64,000 bases of DNA from Pseudovibrio japonicus (lineage in GTDB: Bacteria; Pseudomonadota; Alphaproteobacteria; Rhizobiales; Stappiaceae). How positions within the stretch are numbered: position 1 is the stretch's first letter; each line of letters starts with the position of its first letter. The stretch covers positions 1 through 64,000 of the forward strand of contig NZ_BMXE01000008.1 in assembly GCF_014651595.1 (NCBI RefSeq), in the 5' to 3' direction. This document shows positions 3,230 to 13,778 of this stretch, piece by piece. The translations under genes and the position numbers were made by a program. A model generated the notes under the pieces. That model saw only the letters and a list, made by a program, of their open reading frames with translations. It had not been told where the DNA came from and ran no database searches.

Positions 3230-3342
3230 GGGGGATGGAAATTGGTTGTGCGAATTATTGACACGATCTCTATGGTGTGTATTCGGGTGGTAATGCACCT
3301 CCAATTTATGGCCTAGTTTGCAGTAGAGCTATGTCGCCAATT

Positions 3343-4250
3343 TCAGTTGTATTGCGAGTGTTCTTCCATCAATGGCCACGCTGGCCTTTTGTTGCTGTAA
3401 GTTCGGAGCCAGTTTTTTGCTTCTGCTTGTGCCTGTTTGATACCTTCAAAGCAGACCTGATCGTGCCATTCTTGTCGGACTGTGCTGATATTTTGTTCCA
3501 CATATGCATTTTGAGCAGGCATTCCAGGCTTAAAACGCCGGGTCTGGATGTTATCCGGGCGGTTGTCCGCACGACTTACCGTAGGCTTGCCCCGCCATTC
3601 AATAATCTGCTTTAAAGTCCGCATGACACTGAGTGCGGGCAGGTAGAAGTCAACTTCGATATCCAGCCTTTTCTGATAAAGTCATTAAGGGTATCGAGTG
3701 TATGTGACTGTCCGCCATCTTCCAGTACATTCGATAGACCGCTTATGGCTCGAAGCAAAGCCATTGATATTGCGGAAATAAAGAAAACTCAGAGCAACCC
3801 CTCAGGTTCAGTTGGTTGTGGTTAAACGCGCCAGCCAGTCCGCATTGGCTGCACTCTCGTTACGCCTGTTGCTCATACCGGTAGCAGTATATACTCGCAC
3901 AGAGGTGCAGGATGTCAGAACGATGGAATTCACGTTTATCTCAACGGCACATATAGCCACCTCACTGCGACAAGTTGACTTCAGTTTTTTGCAACCGTTT
4001 CGTTCAAAAGTTCATTATGTAGCGATAGTCGGCATATATTTTGGGGAACGACGCAGCACTGCTTCCGTAGATTTCAACGGCTAGATCAGCTGTGCATCAA
4101 AACCACGGAATCTTGCACTCTGTTTCTAATGGTCGCCGAGCTCATGCATCGCTCCCTTGACTGCTGAGCGACCGGCATACGGGTTTCACCTTGCTTCAAA
4201 ATAGCAATGATCTGCGTACCATTGAAACTAGATTTCTTCTTTAAATCAGT
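3343..4250 (-). mobile_element. Decayed IS3-family insertion sequence (orfA and orfB relics)
   Basis: Read on the minus strand, 4245-4110 keeps an IS3 OrfA N-terminus (KKKSSFNGTQIIAILKQ, later CMSSATI), the usual helix-turn-helix of that protein. Further on, 3730-3343 keeps the OrfB C-terminus: DTLNDFIRKG, a frame change near 3661, then IEVDFYLPALSV and QIIEWRGKP, and finally QNAYVEQ and TVRQEW. The stretch between is too degraded to align by eye. Stops and frameshifts rule out an active transposase, and I could not identify terminal inverted repeats. The region separates the multicopper oxidase from the glycan cluster. Confidence 0.8.
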
Positions 4251-4315: not shown

Positions 4316-4927
4316 TCAAGCAATCATATCGAAATATTTTTTGAAAATCGTGTTAATTCTATATCTTCTCGTTGGCATTAAATAAGCTCTGGAGCAATCC
4401 TTAAGAACCCAATTATTCCTCTCAATGAAATCTTGAAGTAATTCTCGCTCCCTTAAGAAATTGTGGGAACCTGTATTGTTTGCTTTTTCGTAGAAGCTTT
4501 TTGACGCCTTAAAATCAAAGCCAAAGATAGTGACTCTTGACGGGTTACATTGAGCTAGCAAGTAGGTGACCATTGCTCCAACAGAGGGTCTTGCTTCCAA
4601 GTTGGAATGTAACCTGCTCCATAATACTAAGGGGAAAAAAAGCTCGTTGCTTTGACTTGCTGATAGTATGCGATCTTTGGGGGACATGTATACTTTGTAG
4701 TCGCAGTCATAACTTTGATAAATGTCTTTGACGAGTTTGAAGGTGCTGTAACACCATACATTTGTCTTCGCACCAAAGCTGGTTTCCAGAGGAATAATTA
4801 TGCCGCGGTTCATTCTGATGACAATGTCATGGGAATCAATTTCACTCCCATATTCATAGCTAAAAAGATTTTGAGAGTTGCCGACAACTGCGACGGATTT
4901 ATTGGCAAGATATCTCTTGAGTTGCAT
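4316..4927 (-). CDS. GT29 (eukaryotic-type sialyltransferase fold) family glycosyltransferase
   Basis: A 203-residue protein with the sialylmotifs of CAZy family GT29 in order. The L motif is at residues 12-41 (VAVVGNS, then GSEIDSHDIVIRMNR). The S-motif-like segment is at 114-137 (PSVG to FGF). The very-small motif HxxxxE is at H155-E160. GT29 enzymes move sialic acid from CMP-sialic acid to glycans. Compact bacterial members exist, but their donors are mostly untested. No signal peptide or transmembrane anchor is visible, so a cytoplasmic enzyme acting on lipid-linked or nascent glycan is likely. It is the last gene of a four-gene minus-strand set, 19 bases behind the previous one. No CMP-sialic-acid synthesis genes are in the window, so the donor is uncertain. 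Confidence 0.75.
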   Translation of the reverse strand: MQLKRYLANKSVAVVGNSQNLFSYEYGSEIDSHDIVIRMNRGIIIPLETSFGAKTNVWCYSTFKLVKDIYQSYDCDYKVYMSPKDRILSASQSNELFFPLVLWSRLHSNLEARPSVGAMVTYLLAQCNPSRVTIFGFDFKASKSFYEKANNTGSHNFLRERELLQDFIERNNWVLKDCSRAYLMPTRRYRINTIFKKYFDMIA

Positions 4928-4946
4928 TTCAGGTCATTTCCGCAGT

Positions 4947-5585
4947 CTAAAGGTCGCTTACAAATTTTGGACTCACCGCCTCAGGGTTACTGGGTGGTTG
5001 AACTGGGTTGAGGGCTCTTGCACAGTCAACCTCTCCGTGTAGTTCTGACTTAATTAGATCAATCTCAACTTGTGCATCTTGAGGCATGACACCGACAACT
5101 GAGTTTAAGTCACTCACATAACCTCTAATTTGTTGTCGAATACAGCTATTGATTTGATCAGGTACTACACCCGCCGCTTTCATTTCGTCTGCTGCGGTAG
5201 TTTTTTTTCTCGGGTATCGATGCAGGTTCTCAATGATTATACCGCAGGTCCATGTCGGAGATTGGTTGTAAAAGGCATGGAAGTTCCGGACGAATACAAT
5301 ATCTATAACTTTTGGACCAACTCCGGCCTTATGAAGTCGACTTGCACTTATAAAGTTCTCTGCGGTACGTTGAGCTACGTCTTTTTGATAAATTTGTTGC
5401 CAGTCTTCAAGTGTATATCGGTCATTGTTTAAGGTTACACTTCCATTTATAACACTGTTTCGAGCAGGGGCTCCTTTTGAGATACAGTGACAATATCCGT
5501 CGTAGGAATGCAAGAGCTTCATCTGTAAGGATGGTAAGTAAAATGCCCATGAAGCAATATTTGCAGTGACTCTGGTGGCGTTCAC
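4947..5585 (-). CDS. Hypothetical protein of the glycan cluster (possibly 5'-damaged)
   Basis: I do not recognise a family with confidence. From a GTG at 5585 the frame gives 212 residues. The stretch LHKAGVGPKVIDI followed by TCGIIIENL resembles the N-lobe of small-molecule or sugar kinase-like folds, which is only a suggestion. No signal peptide or membrane helix is seen. The reading frame stays open upstream of the GTG to a TGA near 5685, encoding a plausible protein-like stretch (ERFWRRH...) without ATG/GTG/TTG near its beginning. Protein-like sequence also continues before that TGA. The gene may therefore have lost its N-terminus to a nonsense mutation. It lies between the GT29 and pyruvyl transferase genes. 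Confidence 0.55.
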   Translation of the reverse strand: MNATRVTANIASWAFYLPSLQMKLLHSYDGYCHCISKGAPARNSVINGSVTLNNDRYTLEDWQQIYQKDVAQRTAENFISASRLHKAGVGPKVIDIVFVRNFHAFYNQSPTWTCGIIIENLHRYPRKKTTAADEMKAAGVVPDQINSCIRQQIRGYVSDLNSVVGVMPQDAQVEIDLIKSELHGEVDCARALNPVQPPSNPEAVSPKFVSDL

Positions 5586-5761
5586 TCTTACTTGCTTCTT
5601 AAAGAAACGATTAGGCTTCGGTAGTTTAACAGTCTCTAGAGTAATAATGTGTCTTCTCCAAAAACGCTCTCACTCAGGGTAATATGCAAATTTGTCGTGA
5701 TGCTCGACGTTAATATTTGCTGGTCAAGAACTTCGAAGAGACGTAAATACCTTTGAAAGAT

Positions 5762-6730
5762 TTAGCAAGAACAAACTGCGTCAAACATTTTTTTCGTTTG
5801 AACGGATGCATTTTCGAGGTTTTCTTTAAGGTTTCCCTGCTCCTGCTCACTCCAGCTCCATTCTTCTGGAGAAGCAGATACTAGGTGTTTAAGATCTGAG
5901 AAGACACGGTTCGTATTCAAGCCCATGTCATGCAGCAGGTATGTGATCTTCTGAGTATTGGAGGCAACTGAGATGAAAGGAGTCCCTGCACAGAGTGCGA
6001 GGCAAGCACCATGGAAACGACCAGTGATATATAGCTCTCTAGAGCTGAGAAATTGTGAGAGTCCCACCTCATCGTCAAAGCAGGTGTAATGCTTCAGGCC
6101 GCAGACCAAACGGTATCTGAAGTCTTTGATGGGATGTGATGTGATAGGAGATCTTCTGCGTGGACGAATGCTAGCATAATAATTCTCGCCTGCGGCAGAC
6201 TTGAAAGCATTATATAAACCGCGACTTGTGTTTCTCCTGAGTGCATCGCCCCATGCAATGCCAATACGGTGAGAAATTGCTGATACAGGTCTGGAACTAA
6301 CGAGACTAAGATCTGGGCAGTATTGTGCTTCAATACCTAGAGAGTTAAGATTTCTTTGGCTGTTTGTGTCTCTAAGAGAAACATAACTTGCTGCTTTAAT
6401 TACTTCAGACCATTCTACCGGATTGTCCTGCCAGATACTGTTGATTAGTGCAATGCGTGTCTTAGTAGTGAAAGCATCAAAAATCCTCATACACTTCTCT
6501 GCGTCGTCGCTTCCGCTGTGAAATGAGCCTTCACCATTTATGAGAATGATATCCGCCTTTCTGGCCTGCTCAACAAAAGAAGTATCTTCCCACCAACTGG
6601 AGCCGACTCGAGACGAAGCAGTTAGCTTAAAACCCCGTAGAGACATTTCGCGTCTTATCACGCGCGATACAGCGCGACATCCATGGTGCCATGTGTCGAG
6701 TGTGTCATTCAATAGAACGTAATTAGGCAT
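5762..6730 (-). CDS. Polysaccharide pyruvyl transferase family protein
   Basis: A 322-residue soluble protein of the polysaccharide pyruvyl transferase (PS_pyruv_trans) family. Visible signatures are the N-terminal NDTxDTWHHGCRA loop, IILINGEGSFH near residue 60, an SLRDTNS block near 120, and the C-terminal ITGRFHGACLALCAGTPFI motif near 235, with the family's conserved RFHG. Members add pyruvate ketals from phosphoenolpyruvate to exopolysaccharide or cell-wall sugars, or act as related nucleotide-sugar transferases. Its ATG overlaps the stop of the upstream ELM1-like gene (TAATG), so the two are translationally coupled. The neighbouring glycosyltransferase supports a role in surface glycan decoration; the acceptor is unknown. 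Confidence 0.8.
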   Translation of the reverse strand: MPNYVLLNDTLDTWHHGCRAVSRVIRREMSLRGFKLTASSRVGSSWWEDTSFVEQARKADIILINGEGSFHSGSDDAEKCMRIFDAFTTKTRIALINSIWQDNPVEWSEVIKAASYVSLRDTNSQRNLNSLGIEAQYCPDLSLVSSRPVSAISHRIGIAWGDALRRNTSRGLYNAFKSAAGENYYASIRPRRRSPITSHPIKDFRYRLVCGLKHYTCFDDEVGLSQFLSSRELYITGRFHGACLALCAGTPFISVASNTQKITYLLHDMGLNTNRVFSDLKHLVSASPEEWSWSEQEQGNLKENLENASVQTKKMFDAVCSC

Positions 6731-7770
6731 TATGCTGCTGTCCGAGTAACTTTCTTGTTGAGCTCATTATGAACTGCCGCGAGAAACGTCTCTCTCCAGG
6801 AAACAGAGGGAAAACGCCGTGATTTGAGATCAATACGAGGAGTATTTATCGCATCAACAAGCAGTATCTGGTCAGTGGAAGATTGCTCTTCTAAGAATTG
6901 CGTTATTCTTCTTTCTTTGGGAAGTGATTGTTCAAACACCGCAAGTGTTTTCGCTGAGGCCGTAAGCGCTTCTGAAACCATTGATACGCTTTCCGCGCTT
7001 ACGATAGCCGCAGCTGCGTTGTTTAGCAAAGAACTCATGCTTGCTCGATCACCTCGGTTGAACAGGACCAACTGCTCTATCTCGAGGTTATTCTTATTAA
7101 TGTATTCTTGAATAACGCGTTCATTTTTCGTTCCGGTCCTATGCGAAGTCGTAATCTTCAGGGATAGTTGGTTTTCTTCTGCAATTGAGGCTGCAAATAA
7201 TAGGACTTTCTCATAGAATTGGGTTGAGTAAATAAGTGAGCCTGCATCCCCGCCGAAGGCTACGAGTAGGTCGTTCCTTTCATCATGGGGGAGTAGTTCC
7301 TCATGATTAATTTGAGAGGGAGCACAAGGAAGGCGGTATTCACTCGCTTTTGTAATATGGCCGGGATGTGAGATCACCATATCAATCATATGGTTTGGAA
7401 CGCGTTTGAGTTCACCCAAATGGATTGAAAATGCTCCCAATTTGGATAGGTAAGCAGCCGGGATCTCGCCTGCACCCAATGTGGAGATCACGAATGCACC
7501 ATTTATTTCCTCTCTAGCTGGAATGTCCCCGACGCAAAACCATGAAGCAATCTGATCCCATGCTCCCCCGTCATTCTTCTGCTGAAGAAGGCGGAGATAC
7601 AGAGCCTCCAACACTCGGCTTCGAAACTTGATGTTAATTAACCTGACTTTACCGCCAAACTCATTGGCTAGTGCTTTCGCAAGTCCTAGAAGGTTGTTTT
7701 GATCTCCCAAGATACTACAGCTAATTACAAAGATATCTTTAGTAGTATTTGCCATGTTTTTATTTTTCAT
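6730..7770 (-). CDS. ELM1/GtrOC1-like family protein
   Basis: A protein of about 350 residues resembling the bacterial 'mitochondrial fission ELM1' family, which has a GT-B-like glycosyltransferase fold. Signatures are a glycine-rich GGDAGS segment, KITTSHRTG in the middle, and the SAESVSMVSEALTA motif near the end that forms the nucleotide-sugar pocket in related folds. Bacterial members often sit in lipopolysaccharide or polysaccharide loci; the reaction is not established. The start is uncertain: the frame is open to a GTG at 7845, and ATGs occur at 7800, 7770 and 7755, none with a good ribosome-binding site. I chose 7770 because homology begins soon after. It is the first gene of the glycan cluster and its stop overlaps the next start. 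Confidence 0.65.
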   Translation of the reverse strand: MKNKNMANTTKDIFVISCSILGDQNNLLGLAKALANEFGGKVRLINIKFRSRVLEALYLRLLQQKNDGGAWDQIASWFCVGDIPAREEINGAFVISTLGAGEIPAAYLSKLGAFSIHLGELKRVPNHMIDMVISHPGHITKASEYRLPCAPSQINHEELLPHDERNDLLVAFGGDAGSLIYSTQFYEKVLLFAASIAEENQLSLKITTSHRTGTKNERVIQEYINKNNLEIEQLVLFNRGDRASMSSLLNNAAAAIVSAESVSMVSEALTASAKTLAVFEQSLPKERRITQFLEEQSSTDQILLVDAINTPRIDLKSRRFPSVSWRETFLAAVHNELNKKVTRTAA

Positions 7771-7845
7771 TCTGGGTAAAGAGATAAAATTAGATACCAT
7801 ATTTTTATAATCTGTACACCTTTGTGGGGCAAAAATACTCCTCAC

Positions 7846-8513
7846 AAAATAGATGGATCTAAAATTTAAGTCATCATTACCTTGCGTAAGTTTGTGATTT
7901 TTTTGAAAAAATCTTATCTCAATTGGATGACAACAATTGGAGAAAATGTCCGGAGGATAAGCTTTAGGGCGCCTTCACTGAACATATGCTAAATAGCTAG
8001 ATCAGAGATGGCGTAAAGCCATCGAACGAGACACGTGGGAGGCAACCAAGCGGCGGTGGTCATCTAAAACAATCAATAAAACGACATGGTTACAGGTGAG
8101 ATCGTATGTGCATGCAAAGATCTTTGGCGACATAACGCTATTGCAAAGTTTCTTTGAGATGGGGACGCAGCAGACCTTTGTGGCGCCATACGTCGGCACA
8201 CCTCTGGTGCTGAGTAGTACTCAACTGGATGTGTTTCAGGGTTATCAGCATGAAGAAAACTCTTAACGGGTGTGAAGTCGGCGTAACCAACATCTACGGG
8301 CAATCTGCTGATTGGAACCGTGACGCTCCGCAACGTTTCACCTTAACCCGCTACGCTTGTATGCGACTTAAATTGCACTCTGCAAGATAAATCCGCTAAT
8401 GACCTATTGTCATAAAAGTTGCAAAACGAGCTAAATTGACCGCTTTCCAAGTATAATGTTTCCCGACTACGCAGCCTTCACAGCACCAAGCCCCGCGAAA
8501 TGCCCTGTCGTAT
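7846..8513. other. Intergenic region, no confident gene
   Basis: About 670 bases upstream of the glycan cluster and downstream of the YheO-type regulator. The left part (to about 7990) is AT-rich and probably holds the promoter of the minus-strand glycan genes. The plus frame from 7997 to 8266 is open for about 89 codons without a convincing start and without a family I recognise; it may be a gene remnant. I see no clear RNA or repeat. Confidence 0.4.
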
Positions 8514-9158
8514 CTAAACTATCTTACCACGGGCGCTTTTCAGGTCGTTATAGATGGTTGCGCGGCTGACGCCTAAGACGCGGGCTATGTAAGAGGCAGC
8601 GTGTTTCTCTCGCAAGGCGTCTGTACCCAATATGGCCGAGAGCAGGTCTTTGCGGTCAGTGCGGTCGAGTGCTTCAACGGATTTGTTGCGCGCTTGGCAC
8701 CAGTTCACGATGAACAGGTTCATCTTTTCGTGCCAGTCGTTCTTGAACAGGGCTTCAGAGCCTTGAGTAGTGGCCGGTGTCCCAATCAGTGCCGTGATCG
8801 CATTCTGTGCGGCCATGATTTCGGAGAGGTCATAGTTGAAGCAGGCCAGAGCAACCGCTTTCCCGGTATCATCACGTAGCACCGAGCTGATGGAACGGAT
8901 TAGCCGCCCATCCCAATTGACTCGCTCAAACGGGCCGATAACATTCTCGCCCTTGCGAAAGTCGATCTCCGAAAGAAACGAAGGATCGCCAATCTCGCGC
9001 TTAGAAAACGGATTGCAGATATGGGCAACGGTTTCGGTGACAAGGGAGTGAACGACAATTTCAACGTTAGAACCCAGCAGCTTTGAGAGCGCCTCCGCCA
9101 TAGGGACAGCGACGTTCTCAATAACGCGGTTTTCTGGCTCTGCAGCTGGCTCAGTCAT
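8514..9158 (-). CDS. YheO/DauR-type transcriptional regulator
   Basis: About 214 residues. The N-terminal half matches the YheO PAS-like sensor domain (AEALSKLLGSNVEIVVHSL, then the GPFERVNWDGRLIRSISSVLRDDTGK core). The C-terminus (AASYIARVLGVSRATIYNDLKSARG) is the helix-turn-helix typical of DauR-like regulators. DauR represses D-arginine catabolism in Pseudomonas, and relatives commonly control amino-acid or derivative degradation from small ligands. I chose ATG 9158, with GGGGA upstream, over an in-frame ATG at 9188 that lies inside an inverted repeat. The gene follows the deacylase, aminotransferase and EutC-like genes on the same strand and is the likely local regulator of that module. 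Confidence 0.85.
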   Translation of the reverse strand: MTEPAAEPENRVIENVAVPMAEALSKLLGSNVEIVVHSLVTETVAHICNPFSKREIGDPSFLSEIDFRKGENVIGPFERVNWDGRLIRSISSVLRDDTGKAVALACFNYDLSEIMAAQNAITALIGTPATTQGSEALFKNDWHEKMNLFIVNWCQARNKSVEALDRTDRKDLLSAILGTDALREKHAASYIARVLGVSRATIYNDLKSARGKIV

Positions 9159-9172
9159 CTCAGTGTCCCCCG

Positions 9173-9205
9173 GCATTCCATGACACAACTATTTGTATGG
9201 AATGC
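9173..9205 (-). promoter_or_regulatory. Perfect 9-bp inverted repeat before the YheO-type regulator
   Basis: GCATTCCAT (9173-9181) and ATGGAATGC (9197-9205) are perfect complements separated by 15 bases, in the gap between the deacylase stop and the regulator start. As RNA it would form a hairpin ending about 15 bases before the regulator ATG. As DNA it could be an operator for autoregulation. The sequence does not decide between these. Confidence 0.45.
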
Positions 9206-9251
9206 TTCAAAATCTCCATTCTAGAAACCTGTTTTGCCTGCGATTTGCAAG

Positions 9252-10256
9252 TCAAGTTTCAACGTGTCCCACAACGGCAAGCGCGTCACCTCTTTGCACC
9301 AGACCTTGCCCGGCGGTACAGAACAGAACGCCCGAAGTATTGGCTGTCACAGGCAAGGGCGGACGCTCCACCCGGTCAGCAAAATGCAGGTAGCCGATCT
9401 GCTGGCCCTTTTCTACATAAGCCCCTAGCTCATGGGAGCATTCATAGATGCCGGTTTCATCTGCGTAGGTGTAATGCTGCAAACCATCCACCAGAAGCGT
9501 TTGCCTATCGCTCTGCGAAGCCTCCGGGCCTGTCCAGACCGGATTCTCTGCAATAATGCCCATTGCATGCAAAACACCGCGTAACCCGTGATGAGTGATA
9601 GCAACAGTCGTGGCGCTCGCAAGGGCTGAGCCGCCTAGCTCTGTCGCCAAGATACGTTTGTCTTGTTGCTCCACTTCGGTATCAATCATCTCCGCTGCTG
9701 AAGGCTCGCGGATGATCACGGTTAGCGGCGCATCAAATGCGTTGGCCAGCTTCATGATCTCTTGCGTGGCCGCATCAGTTTTCTGCACTGGTACAAAGGC
9801 ACAGGGAATAAAGTTCAGCGAACGTCCGCCCGAATGTAGATCAACCACCACATCACAGCGTGGGATCAGTTCGCGGGTGACAAAGTCCGCGATACGCTCA
9901 GTGATCGTCCCGCGCGGGTTGCCCGGAAAAGCCCGGTTCATATTGCCACCATCCAGCGGTGACAACCGCGCCCCAGCTTGCACAGCAGGTGTATTGAGTG
10001 CAGGCAGAACAATCACCTGACCCTGAATGTCCTCAGGCTGCAAACCGCCATGGACCAGATGGGAGAGGGCAATCGGTCCTTCATACTCATCCCCATGACT
10101 ACCACCCAGCAACAAGCAACATGGTCCCTCACCATTCTTGATGGAGAACAACGGCACGCGCTGGTTTGACCACGCGCTGTGGTTCATGGAAGCGGGCACA
10201 TTAATATAACCGGCATGAAAGCCATCGCGATCCAACGGGACAGAGGTCGAGGGCAT
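9252..10256 (-). CDS. DoeB/EutE-like deacylase (succinylglutamate desuccinylase/aspartoacylase family)
   Basis: A zinc carboxypeptidase-like deacylase of 334 residues. The metal and substrate motifs are clear: GGSHGDEYEG (His and Glu of the HxxE site) near residue 55, then NMNRAFPG, then VDLHSGG with the second zinc His. The C-terminal barrel ends with GxVxxGxxLAVVG. It is closest to DoeB/EutE, which removes acetate from N-alpha-acetyl-diaminobutyrate in ectoine breakdown. The ectoine-ring hydrolase that makes this substrate is not in the window, so another N-acyl amino acid is possible. Start 10256 has GGAAGA seven bases upstream. The gene lies between the aminotransferase and the YheO-type regulator genes on the same strand. 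Confidence 0.8.
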   Translation of the reverse strand: MPSTSVPLDRDGFHAGYINVPASMNHSAWSNQRVPLFSIKNGEGPCCLLLGGSHGDEYEGPIALSHLVHGGLQPEDIQGQVIVLPALNTPAVQAGARLSPLDGGNMNRAFPGNPRGTITERIADFVTRELIPRCDVVVDLHSGGRSLNFIPCAFVPVQKTDAATQEIMKLANAFDAPLTVIIREPSAAEMIDTEVEQQDKRILATELGGSALASATTVAITHHGLRGVLHAMGIIAENPVWTGPEASQSDRQTLLVDGLQHYTYADETGIYECSHELGAYVEKGQQIGYLHFADRVERPPLPVTANTSGVLFCTAGQGLVQRGDALAVVGHVET

Positions 10257-10366
10257 GAAAATCTTCCAAAAACAACTAAAGAAACCGAGGGTGGACAGGT
10301 GCAAGAAAGACCAGTGCTTGGGTGGCGTAATTGCCGGGTCTTCTGCACCTGCCCTGGGGACCAGTG

Positions 10367-11494
10367 TTAGGCCGTTTCCAAAATGGAGCCGACCACCTTG
10401 TTCAAGCGGTTTAGGCCTTCACGCAAATGCGCTTCTGGCAGAGCTGAACTGAACCGGAAGTGATTTTCAACGTGGAAGCGGCTGCCCGGAATTACCAGAA
10501 CGTCTTGTTCTGCATGCAAACGGCGACAGAGAGTTTCCGAGTCCACCGGCAAATCAAACCGGATGAAGGACATGGCAGATGCCTTTGGCGGCGAAACGGT
10601 GAACACGCCTTGATGCACCTTTAAAGCTTCGGTCAGAGTTTCAAAGCCGGTGCGGATCAAACGACGCGCCCGCTCCACCAAAAGGCCACGTGCAGGCTCG
10701 GCAAGAGCAGCTTCCGCAAGACGCATGGAAAGGGTGGTTGCAGCGACGGTCGCGTATTCATGACGGCGCCAGCTCGCTGTGATCGTGTCCTTCGGCGCAA
10801 CCATCCAGCCAAGCCGCAGACCCGGCAGGCCATAAGCCTTACTCATGGAGTTCAGCACGACCACCTTGTCGTAGTCCCCCCAGAAGCTCTTGGTCACTTC
10901 GTCAGTGTCGCGTTCAGTACCGATGTAAACCTCATCCGCAACAATCCAGGCACCAACCTTGGCTGCCGCTGCAATGATCGCATCGCGCTCTTCCTGACTT
11001 ACCACCTGTCCGGTTGGGTTGTTCGGGTTGATGATGTGAATGACCTTGGTGTTCTCATCCACCGCATCCATCAGCGCTTGCGGGTCAATCTTCCAGTCGT
11101 TGTATGGGTCCAGATCAACATAACGCACTTCAATGCCGCGATTGCGTACATCGCCGGTCAACTGCTCATAGATAGGCCGGAACGCCACCATGTTGTCGCC
11201 GGGTTCAAGCAGTGTATTGGCCACCAGCGTGTTGGCCTCGGATGCGCCCGCCGTCACCAGAATATTCTCAGCGTCGGCGCCCTCATACATCTTGGCAATG
11301 TGCTCGCGCAGCAGGGTCGATCCGTTCACCTGTGGGTAGTCCAGCACGGTGCTCCAGATGGTGTTCGGATCAAGCCCTGTCAACTTGATCAGCTCTTCAA
11401 CCTTCATCGGGTGCACGCCACTTTCAGAATAGTTGTATTTTACACCGTGTTCCAATTCCGACAGGAACTGCTCAACGTGGAAGGGGTGAAACAT
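10367..11494 (-). CDS. PLP-dependent aminotransferase, class I/II
   Basis: About 375 residues with fold-type I features: GASEANTLVANTLLEPGDNM for cofactor phosphate binding, NPNNPTG, VADEVY with the Asp that contacts the pyridine nitrogen, and SMSKAYGLPGLRLGW with the Schiff-base lysine. The C-terminal RFDLP...FRFS region carries the substrate-carboxylate Arg. The substrate cannot be read from sequence. Neighbours (deacylase, OCD-family reductase, threonine-dehydratase-like enzyme) suggest a role in amino-acid derivative catabolism. Start 11494 has AGAGGA upstream. An upstream in-frame extension to 11602 looks non-coding and has no ribosome-binding site. Confidence 0.87.
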   Translation of the reverse strand: MFHPFHVEQFLSELEHGVKYNYSESGVHPMKVEELIKLTGLDPNTIWSTVLDYPQVNGSTLLREHIAKMYEGADAENILVTAGASEANTLVANTLLEPGDNMVAFRPIYEQLTGDVRNRGIEVRYVDLDPYNDWKIDPQALMDAVDENTKVIHIINPNNPTGQVVSQEERDAIIAAAAKVGAWIVADEVYIGTERDTDEVTKSFWGDYDKVVVLNSMSKAYGLPGLRLGWMVAPKDTITASWRRHEYATVAATTLSMRLAEAALAEPARGLLVERARRLIRTGFETLTEALKVHQGVFTVSPPKASAMSFIRFDLPVDSETLCRRLHAEQDVLVIPGSRFHVENHFRFSSALPEAHLREGLNRLNKVVGSILETA

Positions 11495-11617
11495 GAGGTG
11501 TCCTCTCTTTCGAATAAGGCATATCTTTTTCCCAGTGTCGAAAATATGGCTGCAAGCAACAAAACCACGCACTGGTAGATCAATCTGGTGGCGACAAGAC
11601 ACTCAAAAAGCGCAGGG

Positions 11618-11629
11618 GTCCTTAAGGAC
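11618..11629. promoter_or_regulatory. 12-bp perfect palindrome upstream of the aminotransferase gene
   Basis: GTCCTTAAGGAC is a perfect palindrome about 125 bases upstream of the aminotransferase start and 100 bases downstream of the EutC-like gene. Its GTC...GAC ends resemble the GTCTAAATTAGAC palindrome in the eutB/eutC gap, but the centres differ. It is a candidate operator at most. Confidence 0.3.
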
Positions 11630-11730
11630 AATTTCCGCGCAGTTCTGGTCAAATCCAAAATCTGGCAATTCCGCTGGTCACTACGGTCGCTGGCGTACCA
11701 CCAGAGTGTCAGAGCAGCGCAATTACGGGG

Positions 11731-12696
11731 TTAGGGGCGGGCAGAATTGCGTTCGACACTGTTCCAAACTGATTTCGCAATCGCAGCATCCTGCACGGCA
11801 ACACCTGTCAGGTCCGCAATGGTAATATCCTCATCACTACGCGGTGCAGCCCCGTTCGCGAGTGCTTCACCCAGCGGGGTCAAATCCGCTTCTGCAACCA
11901 ATCCTGCCTTGATCGCATTGGCCGTTTCGCCATGTTCAACACACTGAGATGGCGAATCCACGAAGACCTGAGAAGCTTTCGCAAACAGCTGCGCATCAAT
12001 CTCCTGCTTGCCCGGGGAGTCCGCACCAACAGCGACGATATGAGTGCCCGGCCTTACCCAATCGGCTTGAATGAGCGGCTCGCGGGATGGCGTGGTGGTA
12101 ACAATCACATCCGCCTGCTCGCACAGCGCTTCTGCTGTGGGAGCTTGTGCAACCTCCACCGCTGGCAGCTCGGAGCCCAGTGTCTTGACCAGCGCCGCGA
12201 CTTTCTCGGCATTGCGTCCCCAGATGACAACGGACTTATACCCCAGCAGCTCACAAATCAGCTTGGCTTGCAGGTGCCCCTGAATGCCATTGCCGATGAT
12301 GCCAATGGTCTTGGCAGAGCTCCGCGCACCCAAACGGGTTGCAATCACTCCGGCAAGTGCTGTGCGCAGATCTGTCAGAACGCCTTCATCCTGCAAAATC
12401 GCAAGCGGCGTGCCGTTAACCGCAGAAATCACTGCCATAAAGCCATTGGAGGAGGGCAGGCCCTTTGCAGGATTATCATAAAAGCCGGTGGCGAGTTTGA
12501 CCGTGAAGACGCTATCATCTGCAACATGGGCACACTTGATATGGCATTCCCCATTTGCAGCGTCAAAACCAAGATGGGTAACGGGTGCAACCTGTGCCTT
12601 GCCAGCAGCAAAAGCCTTGAAGCCGTTTTCTATATCGCCCAGCACGGCCCGCACGTCCACATGCTTAAGGATCTCTGCTTTCCCAATGATTTGCAT
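11731..12696 (-). CDS. eutC: EutC-like protein, ornithine cyclodeaminase family
   Basis: About 321 residues of the ornithine cyclodeaminase/mu-crystallin family. There is an N-terminal substrate half (GECHIKCAHVADDSVFTVKLATGFYDN) and a Rossmann half with the GIIGNGIQGHLQA NAD(P)-binding loop near residue 125, followed by ADVIVTTTPSREPLI. It best fits EutC of ectoine/hydroxyectoine utilisation. Relatives of the same family (BhcD) reduce iminosuccinate to aspartate. Start 12696 has AAGGTGAG upstream, better than the ATG at 12720. It is transcribed divergently from the EutB-like gene across a palindrome-bearing gap. The family call is strong; the exact reaction is inferred from its neighbour. 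Confidence 0.78.
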   Translation of the reverse strand: MQIIGKAEILKHVDVRAVLGDIENGFKAFAAGKAQVAPVTHLGFDAANGECHIKCAHVADDSVFTVKLATGFYDNPAKGLPSSNGFMAVISAVNGTPLAILQDEGVLTDLRTALAGVIATRLGARSSAKTIGIIGNGIQGHLQAKLICELLGYKSVVIWGRNAEKVAALVKTLGSELPAVEVAQAPTAEALCEQADVIVTTTPSREPLIQADWVRPGTHIVAVGADSPGKQEIDAQLFAKASQVFVDSPSQCVEHGETANAIKAGLVAEADLTPLGEALANGAAPRSDEDITIADLTGVAVQDAAIAKSVWNSVERNSARP

Positions 12697-12721
12697 CGCG
12701 ATTATCTCACCTTCATGCATC

Positions 12722-12752
12722 GTCTGGTTTGGACTTAACGTCTAAATTAGAC
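12722..12752. promoter_or_regulatory. Tandem 13-bp palindromes in the eutB/eutC gap (candidate operators)
   Basis: GTCTAAATTAGAC (12740-12752) is a perfect 6+1+6 palindrome. GTCTGGTTTGGAC (12722-12734), a degenerate copy with the same GTC...GAC ends, lies 18 bases away centre to centre. Both sit in the roughly 100-base gap between divergent eutC-like and eutB-like genes. The geometry fits cooperative binding by a dimeric regulator, possibly the YheO-type protein at 8514-9158. Confidence 0.5.
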
Positions 12753-12797
12753 TAAACAGTATATAGAAACATTTCCTATGACAAGCCGGAAAACGCC

Positions 12798-13778
12798 ATG
12801 ACAATTGAAATTGCCCATATTCGCCAGGCGCAGGAACGAATCTTTCCTTACGTGCAGCCTACGCCGTTGCGACCGTCCCACGCCTTGAGTGAACGGCTGC
12901 AGGCCAAGGTATCTCTCAAATTTGAAACCATGACGGCAACCGGGGCATTCAAGCTGCGCGGGGCGACCAACAAATTGTTGAACCTGCCGGAAGATCAGCG
13001 CGCACGCGGTGTGATCACAGTCTCCAGCGGTAATCATGGTCGCGCGGTCGCCTATATCTCCAAGGCGCTCGGCATCCGGGCCGTCGTCTGCATGCCAGAG
13101 ATCGTTCCGCCCGAGAAAGTCGCCGGACTGCGCGACTTCGGCGCCGAAATTGTAATCCATGGCCAAAATCAGGATGAAGCCGATGCCGAAGCCCGCCGGA
13201 TCGGTCAGCGGGACGGATTACTCTTCGTCTCGCCATTTGATGATGCGGATGTCATCGCAGGGCAGGGCACTATTGGGCTGGAGCTTCTCGAAGTCGCGCC
13301 GCAGCTGGATACCGTACTGGTCCAGCTCAGCGGCGGTGGTTTGATGAGCGGTGTCGCAAAAGCCCTCAAAAGCATAAAGCCAGAGATCGAGGTGATCGGA
13401 ATTTCCTCTCTCCATGGCGCTGCGATGCTGGAGAGCATTCGCGCCGGAAAGATTGTCACCGTCGAGGAAGAGCCGACCATCGCAGATGCCCTGCCGGGGC
13501 CAATTCCACCTGATAACCGCTACACCTTCGCCATGTGCCGTGAGCTGGTGGACGACCACATTCAGGTCTCCGAAGATCAGATCGCTGAGGCGATGGCCTA
13601 CATCCTGCACAACGAAAAGTGCATCGTCGAAGGCGCAGGCGCCGCTGGCGTTGCCGCACTGCTCAATCACCCGGATCGGTTCAAAGGCAAAAACGTTGCC
13701 GCCATCCTCACCGGCGACAACATCAAAGTAGAGCGAGCCCTGTCCATCATTGCGAAGGCACAATCACCGCGCACCTGA
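12798..13778 (+). CDS. eutB: EutB-like threonine dehydratase family enzyme
   Basis: A 326-residue fold-type II PLP enzyme. The PLP lysine lies in FETMTATGAFKLRGATN near residue 50. The phosphate and substrate loop is VSSGNHGRAVAYI, and a glycine-rich VQLSGGGLMSGVA loop follows near 180. It lacks the C-terminal ACT domain of biosynthetic IlvA and matches the short EutB/serine-threonine dehydratase type. EutB is associated with hydroxyectoine use; relatives such as BhcB dehydrate 3-hydroxyaspartate to iminosuccinate, which an OCD-family partner reduces. Pairing with the divergent EutC-like gene supports that two-step logic here. ATG 12798 is adopted without a strong ribosome-binding site. Confidence 0.8.
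   Translation: MTIEIAHIRQAQERIFPYVQPTPLRPSHALSERLQAKVSLKFETMTATGAFKLRGATNKLLNLPEDQRARGVITVSSGNHGRAVAYISKALGIRAVVCMPEIVPPEKVAGLRDFGAEIVIHGQNQDEADAEARRIGQRDGLLFVSPFDDADVIAGQGTIGLELLEVAPQLDTVLVQLSGGGLMSGVAKALKSIKPEIEVIGISSLHGAAMLESIRAGKIVTVEEEPTIADALPGPIPPDNRYTFAMCRELVDDHIQVSEDQIAEAMAYILHNEKCIVEGAGAAGVAALLNHPDRFKGKNVAAILTGDNIKVERALSIIAKAQSPRT

Follow-up and report, generated by a model that had tools for sequence, protein, structure and literature searches.

The window considered here, i.e., the first 64 kb of contig C8 (NZ_BMXE01000008.1) in the 4.96-Mb genome of Pseudovibrio japonicus (G000), contains four minus-strand genes lying between a multicopper-oxidase gene and a gene encoding a YheO-like regulator. 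They code, in this order, for an ELM1-like protein, a protein of the polysaccharide pyruvyl transferase family (PF04230), a 212-residue protein and a 203-residue member of glycosyltransferase family 29 (GT29), the main subject of this text (Table 1). A preceding sequence-only reading regarded the last of them as a sialyltransferase-like gene in a bacterial glycan island. The glycan-island view is supported by the profile, fold, conservation and synteny evidence presented below; the accompanying suggestion of a host-like glycan found no support in any of the findings.

The GT29 protein and its operon

The 203-residue open reading frame (ORF) matches the Pfam profile PF00777 with 64.8 bits (E = 1.1e-17, cut-off 23), and phmmer relates it to the ST3Gal1 structures 2wml and 2wnb (E = 2.1e-7), with the best match over residues 4-56, representing the L-motif block. 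All three motifs reported from the sequence alone are present: the L-motif block (VAVVGNSQNL...IDSHDIVIRMN), the S-like block (RPSVGAM...IFGFDF) and HxxxxE in the form of HNFLRE, where His is H155 and Glu is E160 (the motif names follow the sequence-only reading, general usage and, in part, PMC5811610). In an alignment of the window protein with 44 of its 55 non-redundant relatives, the residues G16, I30, R38, G52, P114, G117, G136, D138, H155 and E160 are invariant (45/45 rows). H155 and E160 also persist in 26 of 28 additional, more diverged rows (fusions and actinobacterial proteins), the exceptions being L017, with Cys instead of His, and L150, unaligned at this site. Overall, His and Glu of HxxxxE are retained in 71 of 73 bacterial rows; hence, the motif residues have not been lost in the homologs.

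The AlphaFold2 model obtained from the 45-row alignment (mean predicted local distance difference test score, pLDDT, 86.7; predicted template modeling score, pTM, 0.86) retrieved mammalian GT29 chains first in a Foldseek search of the PDB: they occupy all of ranks 1-24 (E 3.9e-9 to 1.5e-5; template modeling score, by query, 0.54-0.65; identity about 20%), and the first GT42 entry, CstII, appears at rank 25 (best E = 3.7e-5). By profile, fold and motif residues, the protein is a genuine member of GT29, as the sequence-only reading had it. An accidental origin of the motifs is ruled out by the PF00777 score and the Foldseek matches.

Table 1. Coordinates (positions in the window) of the four genes and of nearby transposase and repeat features
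Feature	Position	Strand	Evidence
GT29 (sialyltransferase-fold) protein, 203 aa; proposed CMP-ulosonate transferase; last operon gene	4316..4927	minus	PF00777, model, motif
Protein of 212 aa, no Pfam family above cut-off	4947..5585	minus	Ad37 orthologue, third-position differences
Polysaccharide pyruvyl transferase family protein, 322 aa	5762..6730	minus	PF04230, 57.6 bits, E = 2.5e-15, cut-off 25.3
ELM1-like protein, 371 aa from first in-frame GTG	6730..7845	minus	PF06258, 66.2 bits, E = 3.5e-18, cut-off 27
IS3-type transposase fragment (relic), 93 aa, downstream of operon	3343..3624	minus	PF13683 rve_3, E = 7e-12
Possible terminal inverted repeat of an insertion sequence (IS), beside relic	3317..3340	plus	21/24 complementary to 8124-8147
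Possible partner inverted repeat, far side of glycan genes	8124..8147	minus	21/24 complementary to 3317-3340

The genes for the ELM1-like and PF04230 proteins overlap by 1 base, and the remaining gaps span 176 and 19 bases; therefore, the four genes are read as one operon. The end of the ELM1-like ORF at 7845 corresponds to its first in-frame start; the limit of 7770 given in the sequence-only reading represents a later ATG. The ELM1-like protein is probably a glycosyltransferase, judging from its profile match. The PF04230 protein scores 34.7 bits against the CsaB equivalog profile TIGR03609, far below the cut-off of 213.1, and no PDB sequence match was found for either of the two. No relatives of the 212-residue protein beyond Pseudovibrio sp. 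Ad37 turned up in the loci and plasmids searched. A kinase-like N-lobe suspected in it by eye was dropped, given the poor fold model (pLDDT 31.6 from a two-sequence alignment), the best PDB profile match at only E = 0.054 and the lack of a plasmid match.

Pseudovibrio sp. Ad37 (L045) has orthologs of all four genes in unchanged order, with 57-72% amino-acid identity (GT29 67%, 212-residue protein 58%, ELM1-like protein 65%). By blastn, the operon DNA of the two strains is 68-71% identical, and the same search of P. exalbescens M63 against the window gave no match. Between 54 and 60% of the nucleotide differences from Ad37 fall on third codon positions in the four genes, e.g., 111 of 202 in the gene for the 212-residue protein; therefore, all of them, the latter included, look like real coding genes. 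The ratio of nonsynonymous to synonymous substitution rates (dN/dS) is 0.10 for the ELM1-like gene, dS being saturated for the other three. Two GT2 genes precede the operon in Ad37 and are absent from the window.

The guanine-cytosine (GC) content of the island is 0.430 against the window mean of 0.531, and the lowest-GC 3.5-kb stretch of the window starts at 4501 (in steps of 500). The AT-rich block of pyruvyl-transferase-like, ELM1-like and one further gene beside GT29, described from the sequence alone, is thus confirmed by PF04230, PF06258 and GC content, and the adjoining IS3 relic is borne out as well. In its own genome, the relic has, besides itself, a single 68-base match at 74%. The inverted repeat flanking the island is marginal, since at least 21 complementary positions out of 24 also arise in 7 of 150 dinucleotide shuffles (and in 1 of 12 simple shuffles); with such frequent matches in shuffled sequences, a composite transposon around the island is not claimed. 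A stretch at the Ad37 contig end (L045:5678) agrees with the degenerate inverted-repeat pattern in 20 of 24 letters.

Judging from GC content and the relic, the four-gene operon was probably acquired horizontally. It is very improbable that it represents a decaying or silent island devoid of current function: the low GC, the transposase relic, the marginal inverted repeats on both sides and the absence of the two GT2 genes known from Ad37 could be explained in this way, but none of the four ORFs is disrupted, their differences from Ad37 fall mainly on third codon positions, and the ELM1-like gene (the only one with unsaturated dS) has a low dN/dS. Farther along the window (8514-13778), the genes for the YheO-like regulator and an AstE/AspA-type hydrolase (by Pfam) are accompanied by aminotransferase, cyclodeaminase-like and threonine-dehydratase-like genes (by eye), a set that we take to resemble an ectoine-degradation cluster.

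Relatives, fusions and gene pairing

A scan of GTDB species genomes yielded 314 stretches with relatives of the window protein, of which the best 80 (L045-L124) were used. Among these 80, the closest relatives come from Ad37 (67%), P. exalbescens M63 (36%), Rhizobium sp. Leaf453 and Jannaschia rubra, and most of the remaining ones belong, by title, to Rhodobacterales. PF00777 is matched in 11 of 16 Pseudovibrio genomes (G000 included) and the window protein itself in 13 of 87 genomes within the family. Of the 15 Pseudovibrio genomes other than G000, G009 and G015 carry the Ad37 and M63 loci, respectively, with every letter identical.

GT29 domains also occur in larger proteins. In six of seven long Pseudovibrio proteins, some of which are incomplete at the stretch ends, the fusion partner is PF05159 Capsule_synth (L010 and L015-L019; not recognised in L011), the family that includes KpsC-type beta-Kdo transferases. 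Other partners include Methyltransf_23 (L005, L049, L055), GT4 (L081, L141) and GT2 (L036), and in the longer Rhodobacterales ORFs L090, L099, L107, L115 and L116, only the GT29 domain was recognised. A single 800-residue protein of Rhizobium sp. Leaf453 carries PF04230 and GT29 matches, both below the cut-offs.

Relatives of the PF04230 gene are present at 9 of the 80 GT29 loci (L045-L048, L066, L088, L098, L100 and L112, with L100 and L112 both belonging to a single metagenome-assembled genome, MAG, as separate contigs), in eight of the nine on the GT29 strand. The two genes are direct neighbors in six (L046, L066, L088, L098, L100, L112); they are one gene apart in the window, L045 and L048 and about 3 kb apart, on opposite strands, in L047. 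In the tree of bacterial GT29 sequences, the window's own branch (support 99/94; the window and L045-L048) consists of five rows, all from loci bearing PF04230. The M63 and Jannaschia clusters harbor, beside GT29 and PF04230, a second, diverged GT29-like gene (L046:9606-10358; L048 from 7167) with VVGPA/VIGPA where others have VVGNA. The M63 copy was missed by Pfam and recognised by a profile built in this work; the Jannaschia copy was read by eye.

Two further loci were observed outside this set. In Stenotrophomonas phage vB_SmaS-DLP_6 (KU682439.2), a hypothetical gene (L155:4965-5756) matches the Pfam GT29 profile (31.8 bits, cut-off 23); a methyltransferase, a nucleotide-diphospho-sugar transferase and a glycosyl transferase are annotated close to it. 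On the Qingshengfaniella plasmid NZ_CP042264.1 (L154:8854-10316), a relative of the window GT29, annotated as hypothetical, is directly followed by a sulfotransferase gene (PF03567).

The donor sugar

The best explanation of the locus, regarded as fairly probable, is that the GT29 protein is a cytidine monophosphate (CMP)-ulosonate transferase, most likely dependent on CMP-activated 3-deoxy-D-manno-oct-2-ulosonic acid (CMP-Kdo), which makes a surface-glycan decoration with its operon partners. The single-domain enzyme, with no recognised membrane anchor, would use a CMP-beta-ulosonate, most likely CMP-Kdo supplied by the housekeeping KdsB, and would transfer the ulosonic acid with inversion, giving rise to an alpha linkage. 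A surface glycan, probably lipopolysaccharide (LPS) or another exported polysaccharide, would serve as the acceptor. The ELM1-like protein would probably add a further sugar and the PF04230 protein a pyruvate ketal, resulting in an acidic decoration, with the order of these reactions being presumed. From the genomic distribution of synthesis genes, CMP-Kdo, named in the sequence-only reading just as a donor for the activity assay, appears to be a better guess for the donor than a nonulosonate.

Donor genes were searched for in the genomes of 50 of the 80 loci (49 isolates and one MAG). NeuB was found in five of them (L047, L053, L074, L098, L100), so that it is missing from 45 of these genomes with relatives of the GT29 gene, among them Ad37, which has the same operon, and P. 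exalbescens M63. By contrast, KdsB (TIGR00466) was matched in all 51 genomes (the 50 and G000), in 50 of them at E 2.4e-35 or better, although only 7 of 51 passed the strict TIGR00466 cut-off; the KdsB of P. japonicus (C3:356,493) passes NF003952 with 226 bits (cut-off 193). In Ad37 and M63, KdsB is the only strong match of the CMP-ulosonate-synthetase type, further matches being at E 4e-5 or worse. The suggestion of a CMP-Kdo donor stems from this combination, i.e., 45 of 50 GT29-bearing genomes without NeuB but 49 of 50 with a strong KdsB match. It also draws on the PF05159 fusions, on the plant enzyme RCKT1 (see below) and on a contiguous run of kdsA, kdsC, GT29, GT29 and a PF04230-like gene in the Microbacteriaceae MAG G122 (contig L112). 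In this run, kdsA, a fragment at the contig end, scores 305 bits against NF003543 (cut-off 242) and kdsC 133 bits against TIGR01670 (cut-off 107); the three G122 contigs are alike in GC (0.577-0.591).

A number of findings weigh against a CMP-Kdo donor. KdsB is expected in almost every Gram-negative bacterium; therefore, its presence alone is no positive evidence, and the NeuB counts cover synthesis, whereas sialic acid might also be taken up from outside. P. japonicus itself possesses NeuB (PF03102 match at C8:71,448-72,215) in a gene set that shares the contig with the GT29 gene at a distance of 66.5 kb. In G122, kdsA stays below the TIGR01362 cut-off (294.6 vs. 314) and kdsC below that of NF007019 (143 vs. 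208), and KdsB-like matches are weak, the best (8e-11) lying within a NeuA-HAD gene. Moreover, the linkage of kdsA/kdsC to GT29 was seen in this one MAG, where a binning error is possible, and no kds genes were found at the other 78 of the 80 GT29 loci. The node joining the kdsA-linked GT29 proteins to the window's branch has a support of only 88/80 in a tree where 26 of 70 inner branches are well supported, the bootstrap is unsettled, some branches are long and the window row is among those with an unusual letter make-up. All ten GT29-bearing genomes of the order of G122 (Actinomycetales) other than G122, along with G122 itself, contain NeuB, so some GT29 proteins very likely use nonulosonates. 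The presence of sialic acid in the LPS of Rhodobacter capsulatus, as stated in a portion of PMC9631793, speaks against a Kdo-only rule.

A second reading, considered unlikely but the more serious of the alternatives for the donor, is that the window protein transfers a nonulosonic acid, Kdn-like or other, provided by the host's own set. The absence of CMP-sialic-acid synthesis genes from the window was noted correctly; the genome search proposed along with it located NeuB, a 387-residue fused cytidylyltransferase/HAD protein and a putative transferase of the DUF6716 type, all adjoining (C8:71385-75110, i.e., L026:11385-15110), from C8:71,385 onward, 7.4 kb beyond the window's end. The GC content of the set is 0.456 against 0.515-0.522 beside it, and the HAD half of the fused protein scores best against the Kdn-9-phosphatase profile NF058599 (110 bits, below the cut-off of 180). 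Given NeuB and the fused protein, the nonulosonate donor guessed from the sequence alone is possible in this host; the guess does not extend easily to the 45 related genomes, Ad37 among them, where NeuB is lacking. Besides, the DUF6716 transferase next to NeuB could itself serve the NeuB pathway.

Comparisons across genomes point both ways. The occurrence of NeuB in Pseudovibrio does not follow that of GT29 (5 of 11 genomes with GT29 vs. 1 of 5 without, p = 0.59; 4 of 10 vs. 1 of 5 excluding G000), and a role of NeuB as a GT29 companion within the genus was rejected on this basis. PF00777 is matched in 11 of 297 genomes drawn from the order of G122, in ten of these above the cut-off. There, NeuB is found in 10 of 10 genomes with GT29 (G122 apart) and in 20 of 80 without (the first 80 of 286), giving a Fisher p = 5e-6, which is not a true probability, since the genomes are related; KdsA was not found in any of these ten. 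In five of the ten, NeuB lies less than 20 kb from GT29, and DUF6716 genes occur near GT29 in 5 of 10 actinobacterial stretches with lengths of up to 19.5 kb. Fused cytidylyltransferase/HAD-like genes were also seen near GT29 in actinobacteria.

A third candidate, a GT29-fold transferase with a donor other than an ulosonate, is highly unlikely. At least one family member, the plant protein GALT29A, has been proposed as a galactosyltransferase using UDP-Gal; thus, membership in GT29 is no proof of a CMP donor, and the identity of the window protein to characterised GT29 structures is only about 20%. On the other hand, the near-complete retention of motif residues, including the VS-type His and Glu, does not favor such a donor, which would also offer no explanation for the genomic association with ulosonate genes observed in two lineages.

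With CMP-Kdo as the preferred donor for the window protein, a broader view of the family can be put forward only tentatively, as a possibility with the odds somewhat against it: bacterial GT29 would be a CMP-ulosonate family of two branches, a widespread, mainly alphaproteobacterial one using CMP-Kdo, with the window protein in it, and a mainly actinobacterial one using nonulosonate (Kdn-like) donors, with corollaries for animals and plants and with pyruvylated Kdo caps. In the midpoint-rooted tree of the 73 bacterial rows, 13 rows form one side, namely the 10 actinobacterial proteins together with L012, L036 and the Rhizobium fusion, and NeuB is present in 13/13 of their genomes. The window's side also holds the kdsA-linked proteins, the Capsule_synth fusions and the remaining rows, with NeuB in 8 of 34 distinct tested genomes (17 rows being outside the test; p = 1.4e-6 vs. 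13/13). Within alphaproteobacteria, the respective figures are 3/3 and 7/33 (p = 0.017), with Rhizobium Leaf453 counted on both sides; the support of the two-side split is only 89/82. If this view is true, animal sialyltransferases would have their origin in bacterial Kdo transferases, the donor of the plant GT29 Kdo transferase would be the older one rather than a derived one, and GT29/PF04230 pairs would build pyruvylated Kdo caps. The animal and plant part of it draws on literature and inference, since the tree contains no eukaryotic sequences. As most tested hosts of the window's branch have KdsB and lack NeuB, the name "sialyltransferase" is probably wrong for many of its members.

To our knowledge, no activity is known for any bacterial GT29 protein. 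With bacterial proteins of about 200 residues, the ancestral GT29 donor sugar becomes directly testable, and such small proteins may lend themselves better to expression than the Kdo transferase from plants.

Comparison with known systems

Alphaproteobacterial GT29 proteins have been in print since 2018, so their presence alone is not new. According to the portions of Petit et al. (PMC5811610) drawn upon here, 21 to 23 bacterial GT29 sequences, 19 of them alphaproteobacterial, were called sialyltransferases and regarded as ancestral to the eukaryotic enzymes, Kdo use being taken to have arisen later, within the plant lineage; the window protein shares the family and the class Alphaproteobacteria with them. 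The main text of that paper contains none of the words "operon", "neuB" and "pyruvyl". Neither an assignment of Kdo to bacterial GT29 nor a description of the GT29/PF04230 pair was found in titles and abstract openings of mostly non-subscription literature.

The mammalian GT29 enzymes (ST3Gal1, ST8SiaIII, ST6GalNAc2) have the fold, the L motif, the S-like motif and HxxxxE in common with the window protein, which, however, is bacterial, comprises only 203 residues at about 20% identity and has its relatives mostly in genomes without NeuB. The GT42 sialyltransferases, e.g., Campylobacter CstII, are related in fold, yet they rank after the 24 GT29 chains. CsaB/Pvg1p-type pyruvyl transferases belong to PF04230 like the neighboring gene product, which fails the CsaB equivalog cut-off.

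A precedent in the family is Arabidopsis RCKT1 (MGP2), with genetic evidence for a CMP-beta-Kdo donor: as reported in a part of PMC11288761, Kdo in the pectin rhamnogalacturonan II (RG-II) was undetectable in callus of the rckt1 mutant, and expression of the enzyme in E. coli failed. RCKT1 is a plant Golgi enzyme acting on RG-II, unlike the bacterial window protein, and the two are likened by family membership. Finally, glycans with pyruvylated Kdo (Cobetia marina) and pyruvylated Kdn (Promicromonospora citrea) have been described, as stated in an excerpt of PMC6801904, and such structures fit the pairing of GT29 with PF04230 at 9 of the 80 loci.

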